Assembly: GCA_040755755.1 (NCBI GenBank)
Contig: JBFLZW010000001.1
Span: forward strand, 222,157-286,156
Reading direction: 5' to 3'
From: a bacterium
GTDB taxonomy: Bacteria; SZUA-182; DTGQ01
DNA length: 64,000 bases
Shown here: positions 4,421 through 56,221 of the stretch, piece after piece
Numbering within the stretch: the stretch's first letter is position 1
How the letters are laid out: the number at the start of each line of letters is the position of its first letter
Position numbers and translations under genes: made by a program
Notes under the pieces: generated by a model
The model's database searches: none
What the model was told of the DNA's origin: nothing
Seen by the model: only the letters and a program-made list of their open reading frames with translations

Positions 4421-4435
4421 TGGCATCCAAGTTGC
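4421..4435 (+). promoter_or_regulatory. Sigma-54 (-24/-12) promoter candidate
   Basis: TGGCATCCAAGTTGC has the GG and GC doublets at exactly the spacing of the RpoN consensus TGGCAC-N5-TTGCW. It lies 46 bp before the start codon of the 39-aa ORF at 4481, leaving a leader of about 35 nt that ends in a strong ribosome binding site. No enhancer-binding-protein site was identified. Call by motif only. Confidence 0.55.
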
Positions 4436-4480
4436 AATGTTAGAAAAACAAGAATCCACTAATAAAAGGGGGTGAATTTA

Positions 4481-12674: not shown

Positions 12675-12714
12675 CTTGTGATTGTGCCCGATGGATAGGA
12701 AAGGGAGGAGATTG

Positions 12715-14223
12715 ATGCCGGTTCAATTACCACTTATTATTCCGCAAAAAGACCAGGCAGATCTAATACAAGAGGTGTTTTCTCACGAAAACGTTTGTCC
12801 TCAGCAGGAGCGGATTGCCCTTGAAAGAAAATATGCTCCACTCCTTAAACAGACTGATAAGTTCAGCCGTAAGCTGGTTAGCTACCAGGGCAATAAAGGT
12901 GAGGTTATCCACGGATGGATTCAATATAAGGAAGGCTTCTCATCCCAACTGGTGGAAATTTTAATCCGCAGATTCGGAATACAGCCAGGAGACACTATCC
13001 TGGACCCCTTCAGCGGTTCGGCCACTACTCTTCTGGTAGCGAAATTTCTCGGTATCAACGCCTTTGGCATAGAGATACTTCCGCTTTGCCACCTCGCCTG
13101 GGAAGCTAAGTCGCATGTCCTGGATTATGACCTTCAAGAGCTCAGACAAGTTTATCAGCAGCTTACTCAAAGTGTGCCGAACAAAGCCTCAGAGCAATTC
13201 CCTCATATTGTCATCACGGAGACGGCCTTTCCGCCGGAAACTGAAAACGACATCATGTTTTATACTCAATGGTTTGAAAATCTGGCTATCAGCGATCCGG
13301 CCAGAACACTTTGCAGGCTTGTCGTAACGAGTATTCTCGGAGAGGTGAGCTATACCAGAAAAGATGGCCAATATTTACGGTGGGATTATCGTTCCGAGAA
13401 AATCCGGAGTCGGAATGACACGAAAATTTCTCTCGGTAAAGAGCCTATTAAAAAGGTAGATAAAGGGCCATTGCCATCAGTGAAAGAGGCACTTCTTCGG
13501 TCGTTGAAGGGTATCTTATCGGATATAGAGAAATTCCAGCAGATCCAATCCAGAAAGAGTCATCAGGAGGATAGCCAGCAAAAATTGATTCAGGGAAACA
13601 CCTTAACGGTTTTGCCCGCCTTGGCGGCAGATCAATTTTCCGGTGTCATCACTTCCCCACCATACTGTAACCGCTATGATTATACAAGGATTTACGCTCT
13701 GGAAATAGCTTATCTTCAAAGAGGCCAGGATATTCGGGAATTGCGGCAGAATCAGCTTTCCTGTACGGTCGAAAGCCATTCAAAATTGAACATATTGCAG
13801 AAATGCTACCAGTCTCTTGGCCAGCAAGATAATTACGATAAGATCCTCAATACTGTTCAAAATCATCCTGTTTTTACTGAAATCAATGATGCCTTACAGG
13901 CAAGGTGGCAGCGTGGGGATATGAATAATAAAGGTGTTCTCAGTATGGTAGAACAGTATTTCACCGAACTGACCTTTGTATTTGCGGAGCTTTTTCGCAC
14001 ATGCCGAAGCGGAGCTCATGTAGCCTTTGTGAATGATAATGTAAGGTATGGGGGTGAAGTGATTCCTGTTGACTTACTGAGTACCAGCCTGGCCGAGAAT
14101 TTAGGGTTTGAGCCGGTTACGGTGTATGTTCTACCCCAAAGAAAGGGTAACAGCAGTCAGCAGATGGAGAGGTTTGGCCGCCAGGCATTACGGAAAAGTA
14201 TTACTGTCTGGAAAAAGCCATAG
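12715..14223 (+). CDS. DNA methyltransferase of a type II restriction-modification system (XcyI-like partner)
   Basis: A 502-residue SAM-dependent DNA methyltransferase. The SAM-binding motif DPFSGSATT comes early (about residue 100) and the catalytic motif SPPY (TSPPYCNRYDY) late (about residue 316); SPPY is typical of N4-cytosine enzymes and some N6-adenine ones. The stretch between is long and probably holds target recognition. Start at 12715 is chosen over GTG 12682 because GGGAGGAG lies 4 nt before this ATG. The endonuclease gene follows 45 bp downstream on the same strand. If the partner is XcyI-type, the target would be CCCGGG; that is inference. Confidence 0.85.
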   Translation: MPVQLPLIIPQKDQADLIQEVFSHENVCPQQERIALERKYAPLLKQTDKFSRKLVSYQGNKGEVIHGWIQYKEGFSSQLVEILIRRFGIQPGDTILDPFSGSATTLLVAKFLGINAFGIEILPLCHLAWEAKSHVLDYDLQELRQVYQQLTQSVPNKASEQFPHIVITETAFPPETENDIMFYTQWFENLAISDPARTLCRLVVTSILGEVSYTRKDGQYLRWDYRSEKIRSRNDTKISLGKEPIKKVDKGPLPSVKEALLRSLKGILSDIEKFQQIQSRKSHQEDSQQKLIQGNTLTVLPALAADQFSGVITSPPYCNRYDYTRIYALEIAYLQRGQDIRELRQNQLSCTVESHSKLNILQKCYQSLGQQDNYDKILNTVQNHPVFTEINDALQARWQRGDMNNKGVLSMVEQYFTELTFVFAELFRTCRSGAHVAFVNDNVRYGGEVIPVDLLSTSLAENLGFEPVTVYVLPQRKGNSSQQMERFGRQALRKSITVWKKP

Positions 14224-14268
14224 AGTTAATAATCCAATCCATACAGGTCAGAAGGTTAAGGTGTAAAA

Positions 14269-15201
14269 ATGGCCCCGCCAAGTGAAAAACAGATATGGTC
14301 AGTGGACCAGATAGCGAAAAGCGAATTCTTTCATCAAAAGCTTCATGAATGGGAACTGCTGGAAATTGCTGACCAGCTTGACAAAATAATGGGTGAAGAG
14401 CTGGCGTGGAACAAAGCGGAAATAGAAATTTCAGATGGTGCCTGGAATAAGGTAATCCATCGGGGAATTAAACCCGTCATGGTCTTTGCTCATCCGCAAA
14501 TTCTGAGAGATGTACCATGTTCAACCAGGTATTATCGAATGCTGGCTATGGTTTCCCAAAAATCTATGCACAGGGTTGGACTTTCGAGTAAGCGGCATGA
14601 GGATGGGTGTATTCCTGATTATGAAGCATCTTGTGCTATAGCTAAACACTTAAACAAAATTATCAGTAATCTGGTCGAGTCGGACGAGAAGATAGATGCG
14701 CGCGAATTCGATCTCTGGCGAGGAATGGCAGCAGGATCACAAGCTCAAGGTTCTTGGCAAAATGCGAAAGGCCAGAAAATGGAGCTCACGATAAAAGGTA
14801 TCATCCGCCGCAGACTCTTTGAGAAGGGCTGGGTCTTAGCGGAAATAGATGATACACCACGGGTGGTGTTGAGTGATAAGAGGATAGCAGCCTTTGCCGA
14901 TGAGCCGGATGTTGGATTCTATGAGAATGATAGAATCATAGCTGCTGTTGAAATTAAAGGGGGAATAGACACGGCTGGTGTTTTGGAGAGACTTGGAGCG
15001 GCAATCAAAAGTCTGCGACGAGCCAAAGAAGAGAATCCGGATTCAGTTACCATACTTATCTTACAGGGTATATCCATGACTCAGCAATCGATGGTTGACC
15101 TTAAGACCAATCGAGAGGCAGTGAACTACTGGTTTACCATTGAAGAAGTACTCGATGATGAAGACAAGAGAAAGGAAATATTCAGCCTTCTCAGGATTTG
15201 A
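14269..15201 (+). CDS. Type II restriction endonuclease, probably XcyI family
   Basis: A 310-residue protein next to a DNA methyltransferase. A PD-(D/E)XK active site is visible: PDVGFYEND, then VEIKGG (about residues 224-243), with Pro-Asp, Glu and Lys in the expected spacing. The flanking FADEPDVGFYENDRIIAAVEIK and the N-terminal KxEFFxxKLHEWE pattern fit my memory of the XcyI/Cfr9I group that cleaves CCCGGG, but family and target need a profile search. Start ATG 14269 after TAAGGTG. CCCGGG sites occur in this window (56641, 56695, 58455), so the host would rely on methylation, not avoidance. Confidence 0.65.
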   Translation: MAPPSEKQIWSVDQIAKSEFFHQKLHEWELLEIADQLDKIMGEELAWNKAEIEISDGAWNKVIHRGIKPVMVFAHPQILRDVPCSTRYYRMLAMVSQKSMHRVGLSSKRHEDGCIPDYEASCAIAKHLNKIISNLVESDEKIDAREFDLWRGMAAGSQAQGSWQNAKGQKMELTIKGIIRRRLFEKGWVLAEIDDTPRVVLSDKRIAAFADEPDVGFYENDRIIAAVEIKGGIDTAGVLERLGAAIKSLRRAKEENPDSVTILILQGISMTQQSMVDLKTNREAVNYWFTIEEVLDDEDKRKEIFSLLRI

Positions 15202-27638: not shown

Positions 27639-28868
27639 TCATCCTGAGAGGGCTGTGAGATGGTCCAGTGCAACATCTTTTTTGAGTTGCCTGATGAGCT
27701 TTTTGATTGTCTTGGCTGTTGAATCAATAACAATTACTTCAGGAGGAATCGAGAACTCAAAGTAGAGTTTAAAATCCTCCTGCGTGGCAATGAGGATCAT
27801 CGCAGAAGCATGTTTGGTCTTTGAAGCTTCATACAGTGAGCAGGCAGCTTCTACCAGTGATTCATTCCGCCGTTGTACTCTGACCGGAACCGGTCCCCCT
27901 CTATATTCAATCTTGAGGAGGGCATCTATCCCCTTATTCCTGTGGACAGGAGTAATATCCAGTCCGTAAAGGTGAGCAAGGGCATACTCGCTCACATTCT
28001 CGTATGCATCCCTGCCAGCCTGAAGAAGATAAGAATTCGTTTTTATTGGATTGTTCAGGCGATCCCTGGTAATTTGAATCGCATCGGTGGAGATATCTAT
28101 CCCTATTGAATTGCGTTCAAGCAATTGAGCTGCCACGAGGGTGGTTCCGCTGCCGCAGAAAGGATCGAGTACCACATCCCCACGGTCTGTTACCAGTTCG
28201 ATGATTCTTTCGAGCAGAAGGATGGGTTTTTGGGTTGGGTATCCGGTTCTTTCCGCTGCTTTTGGATTTAAAAATGGGATATCCCATACATCACCCAGAG
28301 GAACACCTTTCTTAAAACCATTCGGTATGGTTTTCCCCTGTGCATCCCTGGCATAAACCGCTTTTCCAAAGCTATCCCGCCGCCTCCGTTGAAGAATCTG
28401 GTCAACATTAGTGGCGGAGGAGTAATCCTGGAGTATCTCGTTGAATTTATAATTCTCTGTTTTTGAATAAAATAAAATATTCTGATGGCAGGGCAATAAA
28501 TTTTTTTGAGAATTCGACCATCTGCGGTAATACCAGATAATCTCTGCCCGAAACATCTGGGGGCCAAAAATTTTATCTAATAAGAATCGCGCAATATATG
28601 AGGCATTCCGGTCGCAATGGAAAAAAATTGAACCGGAAGGACGAAGTAGCCGGTGCAATCGTTGCAGGCATTTATGGATAAACTCTTCGTAGGCATCAAG
28701 AGATTCCCAGGTATCAGAAAATTGGAACTCCTTTGTTCTATCTCTCGTGCCCAGTTTTTGTATTTTTTGGGTAAAAAATGGTGGGTCTAAATAGACAAGG
28801 TCTATACTTTCATCCAAAATATTTTTCAAAACCTCTAAACAATCACCTGGATATACTTCGGCTTTCAT
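27639..28868 (-). CDS. Site-specific DNA methyltransferase, beta-class order (ApaLI-like system)
   Basis: A 409-residue DNA methyltransferase. Catalytic motif DPPF (LVYLDPPFFTQKIQ) is N-terminal and the SAM motif DPFCGSGTT is central (about residue 235), the beta-type order; YPTQKP precedes it. About 130 further residues form a C-terminal domain beyond the catalytic unit. DPPF suggests an N6-adenine or N4-cytosine enzyme. Start overlaps the endonuclease stop by 4 nt. If the partner is ApaLI-like, GTGCAC would be the target; sites exist here (for example 2402). Confidence 0.88.
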   Translation of the reverse strand: MKAEVYPGDCLEVLKNILDESIDLVYLDPPFFTQKIQKLGTRDRTKEFQFSDTWESLDAYEEFIHKCLQRLHRLLRPSGSIFFHCDRNASYIARFLLDKIFGPQMFRAEIIWYYRRWSNSQKNLLPCHQNILFYSKTENYKFNEILQDYSSATNVDQILQRRRRDSFGKAVYARDAQGKTIPNGFKKGVPLGDVWDIPFLNPKAAERTGYPTQKPILLLERIIELVTDRGDVVLDPFCGSGTTLVAAQLLERNSIGIDISTDAIQITRDRLNNPIKTNSYLLQAGRDAYENVSEYALAHLYGLDITPVHRNKGIDALLKIEYRGGPVPVRVQRRNESLVEAACSLYEASKTKHASAMILIATQEDFKLYFEFSIPPEVIVIDSTAKTIKKLIRQLKKDVALDHLTALSG

Positions 28869-29491
28869 TTTATCTCTAACTTCTCTTCTGCGAGTTGTTC
28901 TAATATATGCTTAAAATCCACGTTTGTTCGATTGAGAACATACTCCCATGCAGCATCACCAAAATAGTAGTGACCACCCAGCCCATGATAGAGTGTTCTT
29001 AGGGTTTGTTGGATCCTCATCGCCTGTTTTCTATTGGGATAGCAAAACATGACCCTTACAGGAATATATCCTGCTTGAGCTACAGCCTTTAGGCGAGTAT
29101 GTTCTTTGGTAATGTGATCTCCATCTGTGGTTGCATCACGCCACTTGATTTCTATAGCGTCATGGCCAATAACACAATCTATCTGAAAAGTCTTTGGACG
29201 CTGCCCCTCTGTATTGGGAATTTTTATCGATCCTGAATCAGGGTACTTGTATTTAAAGCACAACCTTGCTGCTTCTTCAAGGAATGAACCTGCATACTTA
29301 TACAGGAAACGACCTTTGTTCTGATATAGATCAATAAGCCTTCCTTCCTCATCCGTAACCCCCAGAACTCTATATATAAGCAAATGAGATACATCATCAT
29401 TGTCCATATCCTGAATACGCTGATCAATTCGGGCTTTTAACTCCTCAGCATACCGCTTCGCCAACTCTCCGATATCATCTTTAATACTCAT
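28865..29491 (-). CDS. Type II restriction endonuclease, ApaLI family
   Basis: A 208-residue endonuclease directly upstream of its methyltransferase. Seen: LAKRYAEELKARIDQRIQ, LIYRVLGVTDEEGRLIDLYQNKGRF, FQIDCVIGHDAIEIKWRDATTDGDHI (Asp...Glu-x-Lys active site) and VRVMFCYPNRKQA. These match my recollection of the ApaLI family closely. Start 29491 with AGAAGGTC upstream. The pair sits inside the glycan locus between the lipid-sugar transferase and a glycosyltransferase and is more AT-rich than both, which points to insertion by transfer. Confidence 0.8.
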   Translation of the reverse strand: MSIKDDIGELAKRYAEELKARIDQRIQDMDNDDVSHLLIYRVLGVTDEEGRLIDLYQNKGRFLYKYAGSFLEEAARLCFKYKYPDSGSIKIPNTEGQRPKTFQIDCVIGHDAIEIKWRDATTDGDHITKEHTRLKAVAQAGYIPVRVMFCYPNRKQAMRIQQTLRTLYHGLGGHYYFGDAAWEYVLNRTNVDFKHILEQLAEEKLEIK

Positions 29492-36053: not shown

Positions 36054-37736
36054 TCACTTCTCCAGCACGAAATTCCCCAGAAACAGCGCATCCAGGCCGG
36101 TATCGAAAAAGCAGCGTATTGCTTCTCTCGGATGATTAATGATCGGCTCTCCCTTGATATTGAAGGAGGTGTTGAGGAGGATATATTCACCAGTGAGTTT
36201 GCCAAACTCGTGGATCAATTCCCAGTACAGGGGGTTTGCTTCCTTTCGCACCATCTGGGGCCGGACCGTGCCGTCGACATGGACCACAGCCGGGATACGG
36301 TCTCTTTTTTCCGGTTTGACATCAAACGAGGTGATCATGAAGTATTCGTCCCGAAAGTCTTGCAGGTATTCTCCCGCCTTTTCCCAGAGGAGGGAGGGAC
36401 AGAAGGGGCGAAAGCTCTCCCGAAACTTTACCCGCTGGTTGATGATATCTTTATTTTCGGCCTTTAAGGGGCTCATCAGGATGGATCGGTTCCCCAGCGC
36501 ACGCGGGCCGCTCTCCATCCTGCCCTGAAACCAGCCGATGATCTTGTTCTCGGCCAGAAGGCTTGCGGCCACCTGGCCCGGGTCTTTCACGAAGGTGTAA
36601 TTGAGCTTTCGCTCTTTCAGGAGCTGTTCGATTTCCTGGTTGGAAAATTCCGGTCCGAAGGAGAGGCGGTCGAAACTTGTTCCCTGAAATTCCCGGTATT
36701 GATAATATACATACAGTGCCGCGCCCAGGGCGAGCCCTGAATCACCACAGTTGGGAAAGATGTGCTGCTCCTCGATCAGGTCTGCCCGTTCGTTCCAGAT
36801 CCGCTGATTCAGCTTGACATTCAGGAACACCCCGCCGGAGAAGGCCAGCCGCCTGCACTGCTCTTTTTCCGCCCAGCCGAAAATGTACTGCTTCAGGCAA
36901 TCCTCGAGCTTATATTGGGCTTCGGCAGCGATGTTTTCCCGGCCAAATCCTGCCGCCAGGCGCTCAACTTCGTAGGCTTCGTCGAAATGAAACTGCGTGG
37001 AGCCGTTTTCAACCCAATAGTAGGCCGGACCAAGCCTGGTGGGCCGGATCAGGCTGGTTCCCCGGAATTGCGGGAAAAGCCAGTCCAGAGCACCGGCACA
37101 CCGCGAGCGATCCCCATAGGGGGCCAGACCCATGGTCTTTCCTTCACCGTCTCCGTGCCACCAGTGGAGGGCCTCGGTCACGATGCTGTAGGCCCAGCCT
37201 ATGGATGCCTCCCGGTAGAGCTGCTCCAGGGGCATTATTCTGTTTCCCTCACCCAGCCAGACCGCGGTCGAAACCTCATCCCCCGCGCCATCCACGGTGA
37301 AGATCAGGCATTTTGTGTTCGCTGGCCGGGTAAAGTAGGCTGAGGCTGCATGGGCCAGGTGATGTTCGACGTTGATCAGCTTTCCCTCATTCCAGAGCCT
37401 GAAGTCCGGAAAATAGAGAGGAACCTGAAGGCATTCGGAAGGAATGCCAAAGCCCAGAAAATCCATCACCATATGCCGCAGGGGGGAGCTTTTATCGATT
37501 CCCAGCACCACCCGAAGGTCTTTCGGGGTCCTTTTCCAGGGGAAGGCGATATAATCCACCTCATTGATATTTTTGAGACCGGCTGCCGACAGGCAATAGC
37601 TCATGGCCTGCGTTGGCACATGGTTACAATGCTTGAGCCGGGTAAATCTTTCCTCAGCCGCATCAGCCAGAATTTCTCCATCCCGTAGTATAGCCGCGCT
37701 GGAATCGTGACCGCAATGAATGCCAAGGACGATCAT
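36054..37736 (-). CDS. Carbamoyltransferase, NodU/CmcH family
   Basis: A 560-residue carbamoyltransferase. The N-terminal ASKHA-type domain starts LGIHCGHDSSAAILRDGEI and has EERFTRLKHCNHVP, the histidine-rich NVEHHLAHAASAYF and VDGAGDEVST; the C-terminal YrdC-like part has GWFQGRMESGPRALGNRSIL and LLNTSFNIKGEPII. Such enzymes add a carbamoyl group to a sugar hydroxyl via carbamoyl-AMP. Overlaps the start region of its upstream neighbour by 4 nt (ATGA), so likely cotranslated with that GT4. Confidence 0.92.
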   Translation of the reverse strand: MIVLGIHCGHDSSAAILRDGEILADAAEERFTRLKHCNHVPTQAMSYCLSAAGLKNINEVDYIAFPWKRTPKDLRVVLGIDKSSPLRHMVMDFLGFGIPSECLQVPLYFPDFRLWNEGKLINVEHHLAHAASAYFTRPANTKCLIFTVDGAGDEVSTAVWLGEGNRIMPLEQLYREASIGWAYSIVTEALHWWHGDGEGKTMGLAPYGDRSRCAGALDWLFPQFRGTSLIRPTRLGPAYYWVENGSTQFHFDEAYEVERLAAGFGRENIAAEAQYKLEDCLKQYIFGWAEKEQCRRLAFSGGVFLNVKLNQRIWNERADLIEEQHIFPNCGDSGLALGAALYVYYQYREFQGTSFDRLSFGPEFSNQEIEQLLKERKLNYTFVKDPGQVAASLLAENKIIGWFQGRMESGPRALGNRSILMSPLKAENKDIINQRVKFRESFRPFCPSLLWEKAGEYLQDFRDEYFMITSFDVKPEKRDRIPAVVHVDGTVRPQMVRKEANPLYWELIHEFGKLTGEYILLNTSFNIKGEPIINHPREAIRCFFDTGLDALFLGNFVLEK

Positions 37737-38989
37737 TGGCCTTCCTCCCTTCCTTTGTGGTTATATCGATTGACTACATCCTGATATATCCGGAGCAGAT
37801 TATCAGCCACCGCTTCAGGGTTATTGATCCGTTGCGCCGTGGTCCTGGCTGCCTGGGAAAGCCGGGCAACCAGGTTATCATCGGTCAATACCTGCTCCAG
37901 TGATTCGGCCAGAACCGCAGCATCTCCCCGGGGAAACATCAGGCAGGTTTTATCATGCTCAGCCAGGGAAAAAAGCCCTCCGACAAACGGGGCCACGACC
38001 GGGGTTCCCACCAGCATGGCCTCCTGCAGGCTGTTTGAGCTGTTTTCAAGATGAGAGGCTATGGCCAGAACCCGGACCATCGATAATACTTCAGCCAGTT
38101 GTCCTGCATCCTTGAAGCCGCAAAAAAGGACTTTATCCTGCAAGCCCAGTTGCTGTACTTTTCTTCTTAAAAAAGCTCCATAACCCTTGTGCGGAAAAGA
38201 TCCATAGATGGAAAGGGTAACTTCAGGAATTTTCCGGCTGAGCAGGGAAACCGCCTCCACAAGGCAATCGACCCCTTTATATGCAGAGCAGGAGGAAACA
38301 CAGGCAATGGTTGCTGGCCGTGCCGACTCAAGCGACCACTCCACCTCGGAGAATTCTTTTCTCATCACCTCATGGCTTTGATAATAGACATATTCACCAT
38401 TTCCAGCCAGGCTCATTAAGTGGCTTTTATCCCAGAGAGTCCGACCGATAAAGAAGCGGTTCATACGGAATATCCTGCGCTCGGTTTTAGTCTTCCTTTT
38501 CACTATCAGGTAGGATTTCATGATTCCCGGCGAGCGGAGGATATCCTTCCAGCCCATGCTGCCGAAATACACCTTAACCAGGGCGGACAGGATACCCTGA
38601 AGGGAAACCACTACGGGTTTATCAACCAGCCCGGCGATGAGCCCGTAGAACTCTTCAGTCCCATGCACATGGATAAGATCGGGATTGAACTCCTCGACGA
38701 CCCCCAGACAGTCAGTCAGTTCTTTCCCGTACGATTGCAGATACTCGCAGATCCTCGATTTGGGAAAACAGAAGTAGGTGACCCCATCGAAATCGAATCT
38801 CCGGGATTCTGAAATCCCTGCAATGGCACAGGCAATACCAAGATGATTCTCCGTGCCTGGCCGGAATTCCGGAAAGTTGATCAGGGCCTCCTTTAAAGCA
38901 GGCATCCAGCAGCCCATGTAATCTCCCGCAAGCCCCAGGTGCCGGACCATCTCCGGGAACGGGGTGTTAACGAGCCAGAGAATTCTCAT
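37733..38989 (-). CDS. Glycosyltransferase, GT4 family
   Basis: A 418-residue GT-B glycosyltransferase: NPDLIHVHGTEEFYGLIAG, IACVSSCSAYKGVDCLVEAV, LSIYGSFPHKGYGAFLRRKV, FCGFKDAGQLAEVL, and IASHLENSSNSLQEAMLVGTPVVAPFVGG. The last keeps the E-x-AM motif of GT4 donor binding. Its ATG directly follows an AGGAGTCAGG repeat array (38999-39104), with no Shine-Dalgarno. Substrate not readable. Confidence 0.9.
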   Translation of the reverse strand: MRILWLVNTPFPEMVRHLGLAGDYMGCWMPALKEALINFPEFRPGTENHLGIACAIAGISESRRFDFDGVTYFCFPKSRICEYLQSYGKELTDCLGVVEEFNPDLIHVHGTEEFYGLIAGLVDKPVVVSLQGILSALVKVYFGSMGWKDILRSPGIMKSYLIVKRKTKTERRIFRMNRFFIGRTLWDKSHLMSLAGNGEYVYYQSHEVMRKEFSEVEWSLESARPATIACVSSCSAYKGVDCLVEAVSLLSRKIPEVTLSIYGSFPHKGYGAFLRRKVQQLGLQDKVLFCGFKDAGQLAEVLSMVRVLAIASHLENSSNSLQEAMLVGTPVVAPFVGGLFSLAEHDKTCLMFPRGDAAVLAESLEQVLTDDNLVARLSQAARTTAQRINNPEAVADNLLRIYQDVVNRYNHKGREEGQ

Positions 38990-54851: not shown

Positions 54852-54867
54852 TGGCATGTAATTTGCT
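54852..54867 (+). promoter_or_regulatory. Sigma-54 (-24/-12) promoter candidate for the thiC-like gene
   Basis: TGGCATGTAATTTGCT matches the RpoN consensus fully, including the TTGC at -12 and the doublet spacing. It lies 89 bp before the ATG at 54956. No TPP riboswitch features were found in 54723-54955. Confidence 0.6.
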
Positions 54868-54955
54868 CATATTTATATATTATTAATCATTCGTATCTTG
54901 ATTGCTTTTAATTGTGTAAGTCATTTTTACTTATTTTTATGGAGGCTAAAGGGAT

Positions 54956-56221
54956 ATGACTCAGATGGAGGCTGCCAAAAGGAGAATCATTACTCATGAG
55001 ATGAATTCCGTAGCAAAACAGGAAGGAGTTTCACCGAAATTTATTCAACAGGGTATCGCATCAGGGAAAGTGATTTTACTTTATGATACCACGGGCCGGT
55101 TTAATCCGGTTGGTATTGGGCCTGGTTTAAGAATAAAAATAAACGCCAATATTGGAACATCCTGTGATTATTGTGACCCGGAGATGGAAATTCAGAAGGC
55201 CAAAGAGGCTGAAAAATGGGGGGCTGATACGCTGATGGATCTCAGCGCCTATGGGGACATAAGAAAGATACGGACGCAGATCATAAAATCTGTCAGGGTC
55301 CCTGTTGGAGTCGTGCCTGTGTATCAGGCTGCGTCGGAAGCCATCCATTGCGCCGGTACGCATTTATCCATGAAAGAGCATAATTTCTTTGAGGTTGTTA
55401 TAGAGTCAATACGAGATGGATGTACCATGCTTACCGTTCATTGCAGTGTGAATAAAGGGATCCTCCATAAGCTTTCCAGGAGCAATCGAATCATTAAAAT
55501 AACCTCCAAGGGGGGAGGTATCATTGCTTCCTGGATGAAGGCCAATGACGCCGAGAATCCTTTTTTTCGCAGATTCGATGATCTGCTGGATATCGCCAGA
55601 CGACACGATACCATCTTAAGCTTTGGTGCTGCATTTCGATCGGGCTGCGTATCGGATGGGGCTGACAGTATTCATAAAGAAGAATTGGCCACTCTCGGGA
55701 AACTGGTGAAGCGGGCCAGAAAAGCAGGTGTTCAAATAAAGGTGGAAGGACCGGGACATCTTGCCGCCCATCAGATCGGACCATTTATCAGGAAAGCCAA
55801 AAAGCTGTGCAAGGGTGCCCCGCTTGGCGTTTTAGGTCCAATAGTTACCGATATTGCTCCGGGATATGATTATATAACCTTTGCCATTGGGGCTACGCTT
55901 GCCATTTTACATGGCGCGGATTACCTCTGTACAGTCTATCCAAGCGAACATCTGGGATTGCCCATTCTTGAGGACATTCCCCTGGGTATTATAGCTGCCC
56001 GGATCGCAGCTCATGCCGGAGATCTTGCTCACGGAAGTTCGAATATTGCCTGGGATAACCGCATGGCCAGAGCACGGGCATCTCTCGATTGGGCTTCTCA
56101 ACTGAAAGAAGCCATTGATCCTTATCTTGCCAAGTCGATACGGGAGAGGATTCCGACGAAGGGGGCCGGATGTTCTGTTTGCGGGCATCTGTGTCCGCAT
56201 AAACTTTTCGGGGAAGTTTAG
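54956..56221 (+). CDS. thiC: ThiC-family radical SAM synthase (phosphomethylpyrimidine synthase or paralogue)
   Basis: A 421-residue ThiC-family protein, the short form seen in anaerobes. Motifs: FNPVGIGPGLRIKINANIGTS, GADTLMDLSAYGDI, VPVGVVPVYQA, HCSVNKGIL, VEGPGHLAAHQI, LGPIVTDIAPGYDYITFAIGA, EHLGLPILEDIPLGIIAARIAAHAGDLA. ThiC converts AIR to HMP phosphate; the paralogue BzaF makes 5-hydroxybenzimidazole from AIR. Two departures: the AIR-site motif usually GDGLRPG reads GAAFRSG, and the cluster motif is C406-x2-C409-x3-C413, one residue shorter than CX2CX4C. With no TPP riboswitch and a sigma-54 promoter, a paralogous role is possible. Start ATG has GGAGG 10 nt upstream. Confidence 0.75.
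   Translation: MTQMEAAKRRIITHEMNSVAKQEGVSPKFIQQGIASGKVILLYDTTGRFNPVGIGPGLRIKINANIGTSCDYCDPEMEIQKAKEAEKWGADTLMDLSAYGDIRKIRTQIIKSVRVPVGVVPVYQAASEAIHCAGTHLSMKEHNFFEVVIESIRDGCTMLTVHCSVNKGILHKLSRSNRIIKITSKGGGIIASWMKANDAENPFFRRFDDLLDIARRHDTILSFGAAFRSGCVSDGADSIHKEELATLGKLVKRARKAGVQIKVEGPGHLAAHQIGPFIRKAKKLCKGAPLGVLGPIVTDIAPGYDYITFAIGATLAILHGADYLCTVYPSEHLGLPILEDIPLGIIAARIAAHAGDLAHGSSNIAWDNRMARARASLDWASQLKEAIDPYLAKSIRERIPTKGAGCSVCGHLCPHKLFGEV

Follow-up and report, generated by a model that had tools for sequence, protein, structure and literature searches.

We found that a ThiC-superfamily radical SAM protein encoded in the window (the whole 64,000-nucleotide stretch of DNA analysed here) lacks both residues that contact the imidazole ring of AIR in ThiC. 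We lean towards viewing it, on the evidence of its sequence, as a member of a rare third class of ThiC-type radical SAM enzymes, whose function would be neither that of ThiC (HMP-P) nor that of BzaF (5-hydroxybenzimidazole). We give an even chance to the more specific proposal that it is a natural ThiC-type enzyme which would act on a different nucleotide or form a new product, with both imidazole contacts gone and expression induced through sigma-54.

The open reading frame, identified by profile scores and alignment, spans positions 54956-56221 (+) and encodes 421 aa from an ATG start. A GGAGG ribosome-binding site, read directly from the sequence, is located at 54941-54945 (+). The protein passes both NCBIfam ThiC models, with 503 bits on PRK13352 (cut-off 410) and 475 bits on TIGR00190 (cut-off 460). 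Annotated BzaF also exceeds these cut-offs (600 and 554 bits, respectively), and because the window protein scores below it (503 vs 600 bits), passing the ThiC cut-off proves little: PRK13352 and TIGR00190 do not separate ThiC, BzaF and window-type functions. BzaB (TIGR04386) belongs to the same superfamily, but the window protein reaches 455 bits on this model and fails the cut-off of 700, while the canonical ThiC of the same genome scores higher (626 bits). With the short form of ThiC (TIGR00190 / PRK13352 / PF01964) the window protein shares full-length homology at 43-49% identity, a C-x2-C-x3-C cluster motif, the metal, phosphate and ribose residues, the catalytic Cys and nearly all SAM residues. 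It differs in D383A and Y449G, in its sigma-54 promoter and in its location outside any thi operon. An exact-peptide scan of genome contigs returned two canonical ThiC at 43%.

Contacts published for AtThiC (PMC4389238) were mapped via a gap-free alignment with CcThiC, Tyr449 being placed by counting from Glu422, and tabulated for 82 sequences including 73 canonical ThiC, 7 BzaF, the window protein and its ortholog. In AtThiC, Asp383 contacts N3 of AIR and Tyr449 stacks on its C5 amino group; these two are the sole published contacts with the AIR imidazole (PMC4389238). In the window protein the equivalent of GDGLRPG reads GAAFRSG (55625-55645, +), and its first Ala aligns with AtThiC Asp383 (CcThiC Asp374). 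Alignment therefore bears out the altered AIR site described in an earlier sequence-only reading: Asp383 has become Ala225 and Pro387 has become Ser229, with Arg386 kept. The loss of Tyr449, replaced by Gly291 (55826-55828, +) according to the alignment and the residue table, is an additional change absent from that reading. Positions 383 and 449 are D,Y in 73/73 canonical ThiC and N,Y in 7/7 BzaF; the combination A,G is found solely in the window protein and its one ortholog among the 82 sequences.

The remaining 20 mapped positions are unchanged except for R343K, which is shared with the ortholog and has K also in 5/7 BzaF, and M572V, which is found in the window protein and not in the ortholog. 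Unchanged residues comprise those for phosphate (Y286, H322, S342, G344, R386), ribose (N228, E422) and metal (H426, H490), the three cluster Cys, the catalytic Cys (Cc C474) and, in the SAM pocket, G230, L259, E489, R386, L493 and P494. Near the pocket Gly384, Pro387, Phe448, Tyr484 and Thr486 are also changed, and F381, A/S384, S387, L448, T/V484 and Y486 likewise distinguish window-type proteins. Among 118 highly conserved columns, 21 are changed in both copies. An AlphaFold model of the window protein, built with three alignment rows, was poor (mean pLDDT 60) and was set aside.

The [4Fe-4S] motif CSVCGHLC (56171-56194, +) had been correctly read as C-x2-C-x3-C and taken for an alteration, but this spacing is the normal form of short ThiC. 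Every short-form ThiC with a readable motif has x3, including the genome's own CTMCGEFC, whereas C-x2-C-x4-C, as published, is the spacing of the long form found in E. coli, plants and Caulobacter (PMC4389238).

A second, canonical ThiC is encoded elsewhere in the same genome, on contig C17 (656.8 Pfam bits vs 507 for the window gene). It is part of a thi4-thiC-thiE-thiD operon containing a Thi4 that is a sulfide-dependent thiazole synthase (TIGR00292) and a ThiD-like gene, so HMP-P from the window enzyme would be redundant. The suggested search for a second, riboswitch-controlled thiC is borne out for the gene and not for its control: the canonical thi operon has no Rfam TPP riboswitch match down to E<=1. 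Around the window gene we likewise found no thi operon and no TPP riboswitch (Rfam, upstream, down to E<=1), and no Rfam element at all upstream at E<=1. The missing riboswitch was accurately observed but is uninformative as a clue, since the real thi operon lacks one too. That the window gene arose by recent duplication of the canonical thiC in the same genome was weakly rejected (p-AU 0.04, or 0.098 with a wider group).

By sequence reading, the window gene is solitary: its upstream neighbour is a divergent membrane/beta-barrel-like gene, and downstream come recC and recB. Elsewhere in the window, 27642-28910 (-) and 12682-15198 (+) have GC3 of 0.41-0.47 within a background of 0.60-0.70 and are perhaps acquired DNA; one of these two genes is a DNA methylase by sequence reading. 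A long minus-strand gene run at 29606-50829 resembles a surface polysaccharide cluster, with glycosyltransferases, an asparagine synthase-like gene, a carbamoyltransferase-like gene (36057-37760) and ABC exporter parts.

Upstream of the window gene a sigma-54 (RpoN) -24/-12 element, TGGCAT-GTAAT-TTGC-T (TGGCATGTAATTTGCT; 54852-54867, +), fits TGGCAY-N5-TTGCW, and a transcript start would be expected at 54878 (+), given the customary spacing from the -12 GC. Genome-wide, this pattern occurs at 75 sites compared to 6 for a backward-read control pattern; by our arithmetic a chance match in a 200-bp upstream stretch is thus around 1 in 10,000. The ortholog is also preceded by a sigma-54 element, TGGCATATTATTTGCA, and has neighbours that differ from those in the window (a gidA/mnmG-like gene and a secreted protein). 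An rpoN gene was found in both genomes. The pattern count, the recurrence at the ortholog and the presence of rpoN uphold the proposed RpoN match, and the comparison argues for a genuine sigma-54 promoter that is presumably active. The upstream regions of the two genes share no clear conserved repeat of the kind expected for an enhancer site. Other sigma-54 sites in the genome precede genes for P-II, sigma-54 activators, prepilins, PEP-CTERM proteins, Gly/Tyr-rich secreted proteins, polysaccharide export, a ketosynthase and a carbamoyltransferase; two papers report sigma-54 control of PEP-CTERM genes in other bacteria (PMC1569441, PMC9850573). The regulon is broad and names no pathway for the window gene. 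The window contains another sigma-54-like site, at 4421-4436 (+), which has no ORF >61 aa shortly downstream and possibly serves a small RNA or a small protein.

The sole ortholog comes from a genome of the same family but another genus (G003). It is 63-74% identical over its pieces and 68% in the tree comparison, shares A383, G449, S387 and K343, and has a reading frame that is shifted twice. The gene is absent from a genome of the same genus (G001) and from a further genome (G002), and besides G003 no ortholog was found in a domain-wide sample of 386 genomes or in two additional phyla. No relative was found on viral contigs, nor any above 60% on plasmids. A search of open papers yielded none on ThiC paralogs other than Bza.

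The window protein and its ortholog are set off from ThiC and BzaF with 100% support by a long private stem of 1.6-2.1 changes per column. For BzaF we used the annotated Trichlorobacter lovleyi protein (WP_012471694.1, from cobT-bzaF on plasmid pGLOV01) and six BzaF-like ThiC paralogs, three of which come from loci that have cobalamin riboswitches and, in two cases, adjoining cobU/cobT-like genes. The contrast loci for a cobalamin riboswitch and/or cob neighbours were L104, L106, L115 and L213. For BzaA/BzaB references, TIGR04386 was run over 386 + 392 genomes, with none above the cut-off. In a smaller, careful tree BzaF forms one clade (100/99) that excludes the window protein. The placement of the pair itself differs, among ThiC in a larger, quick tree and weakly beside BzaF (60/81) in the careful one; nesting inside BzaF is rejected (p-AU 0.008).

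Four other explanations were weighed. An enzyme that makes the benzimidazole lower ligand of cobamides by another active-site solution, as the sequence-only reading had suggested in naming BzaF, is very improbable. It would suit a genome with cobT near a cobalamin riboswitch, without BluB above cut-off and without BzaF. BzaF is, moreover, a ThiC paralog that is also altered at position 383 (to N) and often has K at 343, and the careful tree weakly joins the two. However, all 7 BzaF carry S228/N383/A387, a signature derived here from these 7 sequences, together with Tyr449, whereas the window protein has N228/A383/S387/G449. Nesting inside BzaF was rejected, and the window gene has neither a cobalamin riboswitch nor cob neighbours by Rfam and gene neighbourhood; the cobT region of the same genome holds two such riboswitches, and the BzaF-like gene of a relative in the same class has one. 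We therefore consider a BzaF-like role not supported. The need for a lower ligand does not track the gene, as cobT is present in 8/9 genomes of the phylum and BluB above cut-off in none, unmatched by presence of the window-type gene. Since G001 and G002, without such a paralog, also have cobT and no BluB above cut-off, lower-ligand synthesis is neither required nor excluded. Two observations were made alongside: a group II intron RNA match (L134:5637-5879, contig C36 of the window's genome) is located around 3.5 kb from cobT in the stretch with the two cobalamin riboswitches, and the class relative (G005) encodes one of the six paralogs above, of BzaF type with S228/N383/A387, that passes the NCBIfam ThiC cut-offs (L115:563-1915, -) and has a cobalamin riboswitch upstream (L115:2248-2435, -).

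We regard it as rather improbable that the protein is a normal ThiC paralog, controlled by sigma-54 and tolerant of altered ring contacts, that serves as a back-up HMP-P synthase. Although this reading agrees with the passed ThiC cut-offs, with most catalytic residues being kept and with the partial activity retained by AtThiC D383N (PMC11117688), position 383 is Ala and not Asn, 449 is Gly, and both positions are invariant in 73/73 ThiC. AtThiC D383A consumes AIR and makes formate and a C4 phosphate aldehyde but no HMP-P (PMC11117688, Sharma et al. 2024). The score on the ThiC model is below that of annotated BzaF, and the genome already has a canonical thiC. With that gene elsewhere, Asp383 lost and no HMP-P made by the D383A mutant, the proposal that the enzyme does not serve routine thiamine synthesis has good support. 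A paralog that is dead or decaying, or a protein that only senses by binding a nucleotide, is improbable. The very long stem branch, the two frame shifts in the G003 copy and the low GC3 of the window gene (0.45 vs 0.52-0.70 in neighbours) would fit it. Nonetheless, the window ORF is intact, with promoter and ribosome-binding site, and both copies retain the catalytic Cys and the residues for cluster, metal, phosphate and ribose, none of which a dead enzyme would need. In the G003 draft cobT likewise contains a stop, so the breaks in the ortholog may be an error; error and decay are not separable there. For the window protein and its ortholog dN is 0.22, compared to 0.12 for the canonical ThiC proteins of the two genomes, with dS saturated in both pairs. 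Given that A383 and G449 are held in two genera, this indicates a protein that evolves faster but under constraint and is not drifting freely.

Returning to the third class, the suggestion that the protein is something new survives on stronger evidence than the sequence-only reading had, with D383A and Y449G shared with the ortholog and distinct from 73/73 ThiC and 7/7 BzaF. Its lack of a neighbourhood that names a pathway, and its membership of two sequences, one of them broken, count against it. As the cluster, metal, phosphate, ribose, nearly all SAM residues and the hydrogen-transfer Cys are kept, binding of a 5'-phosphoribosyl compound would be expected. We propose that such a substrate would be anchored as in ThiC and that the 5'-deoxyadenosyl radical would abstract its C5' hydrogen. 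The base pocket would no longer hold or protonate an aminoimidazole, and because both residues that hold and activate the ring are small, the ring would probably not be captured by the ribose radical into the thiamine pyrimidine. Expression would be switched on by sigma-54 with an enhancer-binding activator, apart from the thi operon.

Small residues at both ring contacts suggest room for another base, and the substrate might carry a different or bulkier one. High specificity of ThiC for AIR has been reported (PMC11117688), and a changed substrate may thus need more than the changes seen in the window protein. Alternatively, AIR itself might be fragmented to base, formate and C4 phosphate, as by AtThiC D383A in vitro. 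An enzyme of this kind, a special case of the third class, would carry out the early ThiC steps and release aminoimidazole, formate and the C4 phosphate aldehyde. This is exactly the chemistry of the D383A mutant (PMC11117688), which has the same Ala at the position of the presumed proton donor to AIR N3, and all early-step residues are kept. The window protein differs from the mutant, however, in also being without Tyr449, the loss of which may weaken AIR binding too, and in further pocket changes. SAM would moreover be spent on destroying a purine precursor with no obvious benefit, and we consider dedicated AIR fragmentation unlikely.

If the third class is real, it would add a third reaction, induced through sigma-54, to a superfamily with two known ones. 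Because curated models label both window-type proteins and BzaF 'ThiC', such proteins go unnoticed in automatic annotation; ThiC, BzaF and window type can be told apart simply by residues 228, 383, 387 and 449. ThiC catalyses one of the most complex radical rearrangements known, and to our knowledge this scaffold has changed its product in no other known case than that of ThiC and the Bza enzymes. The window protein would thus be a natural test of how ring recapture is controlled and of whether the ThiC scaffold supports further reactions.
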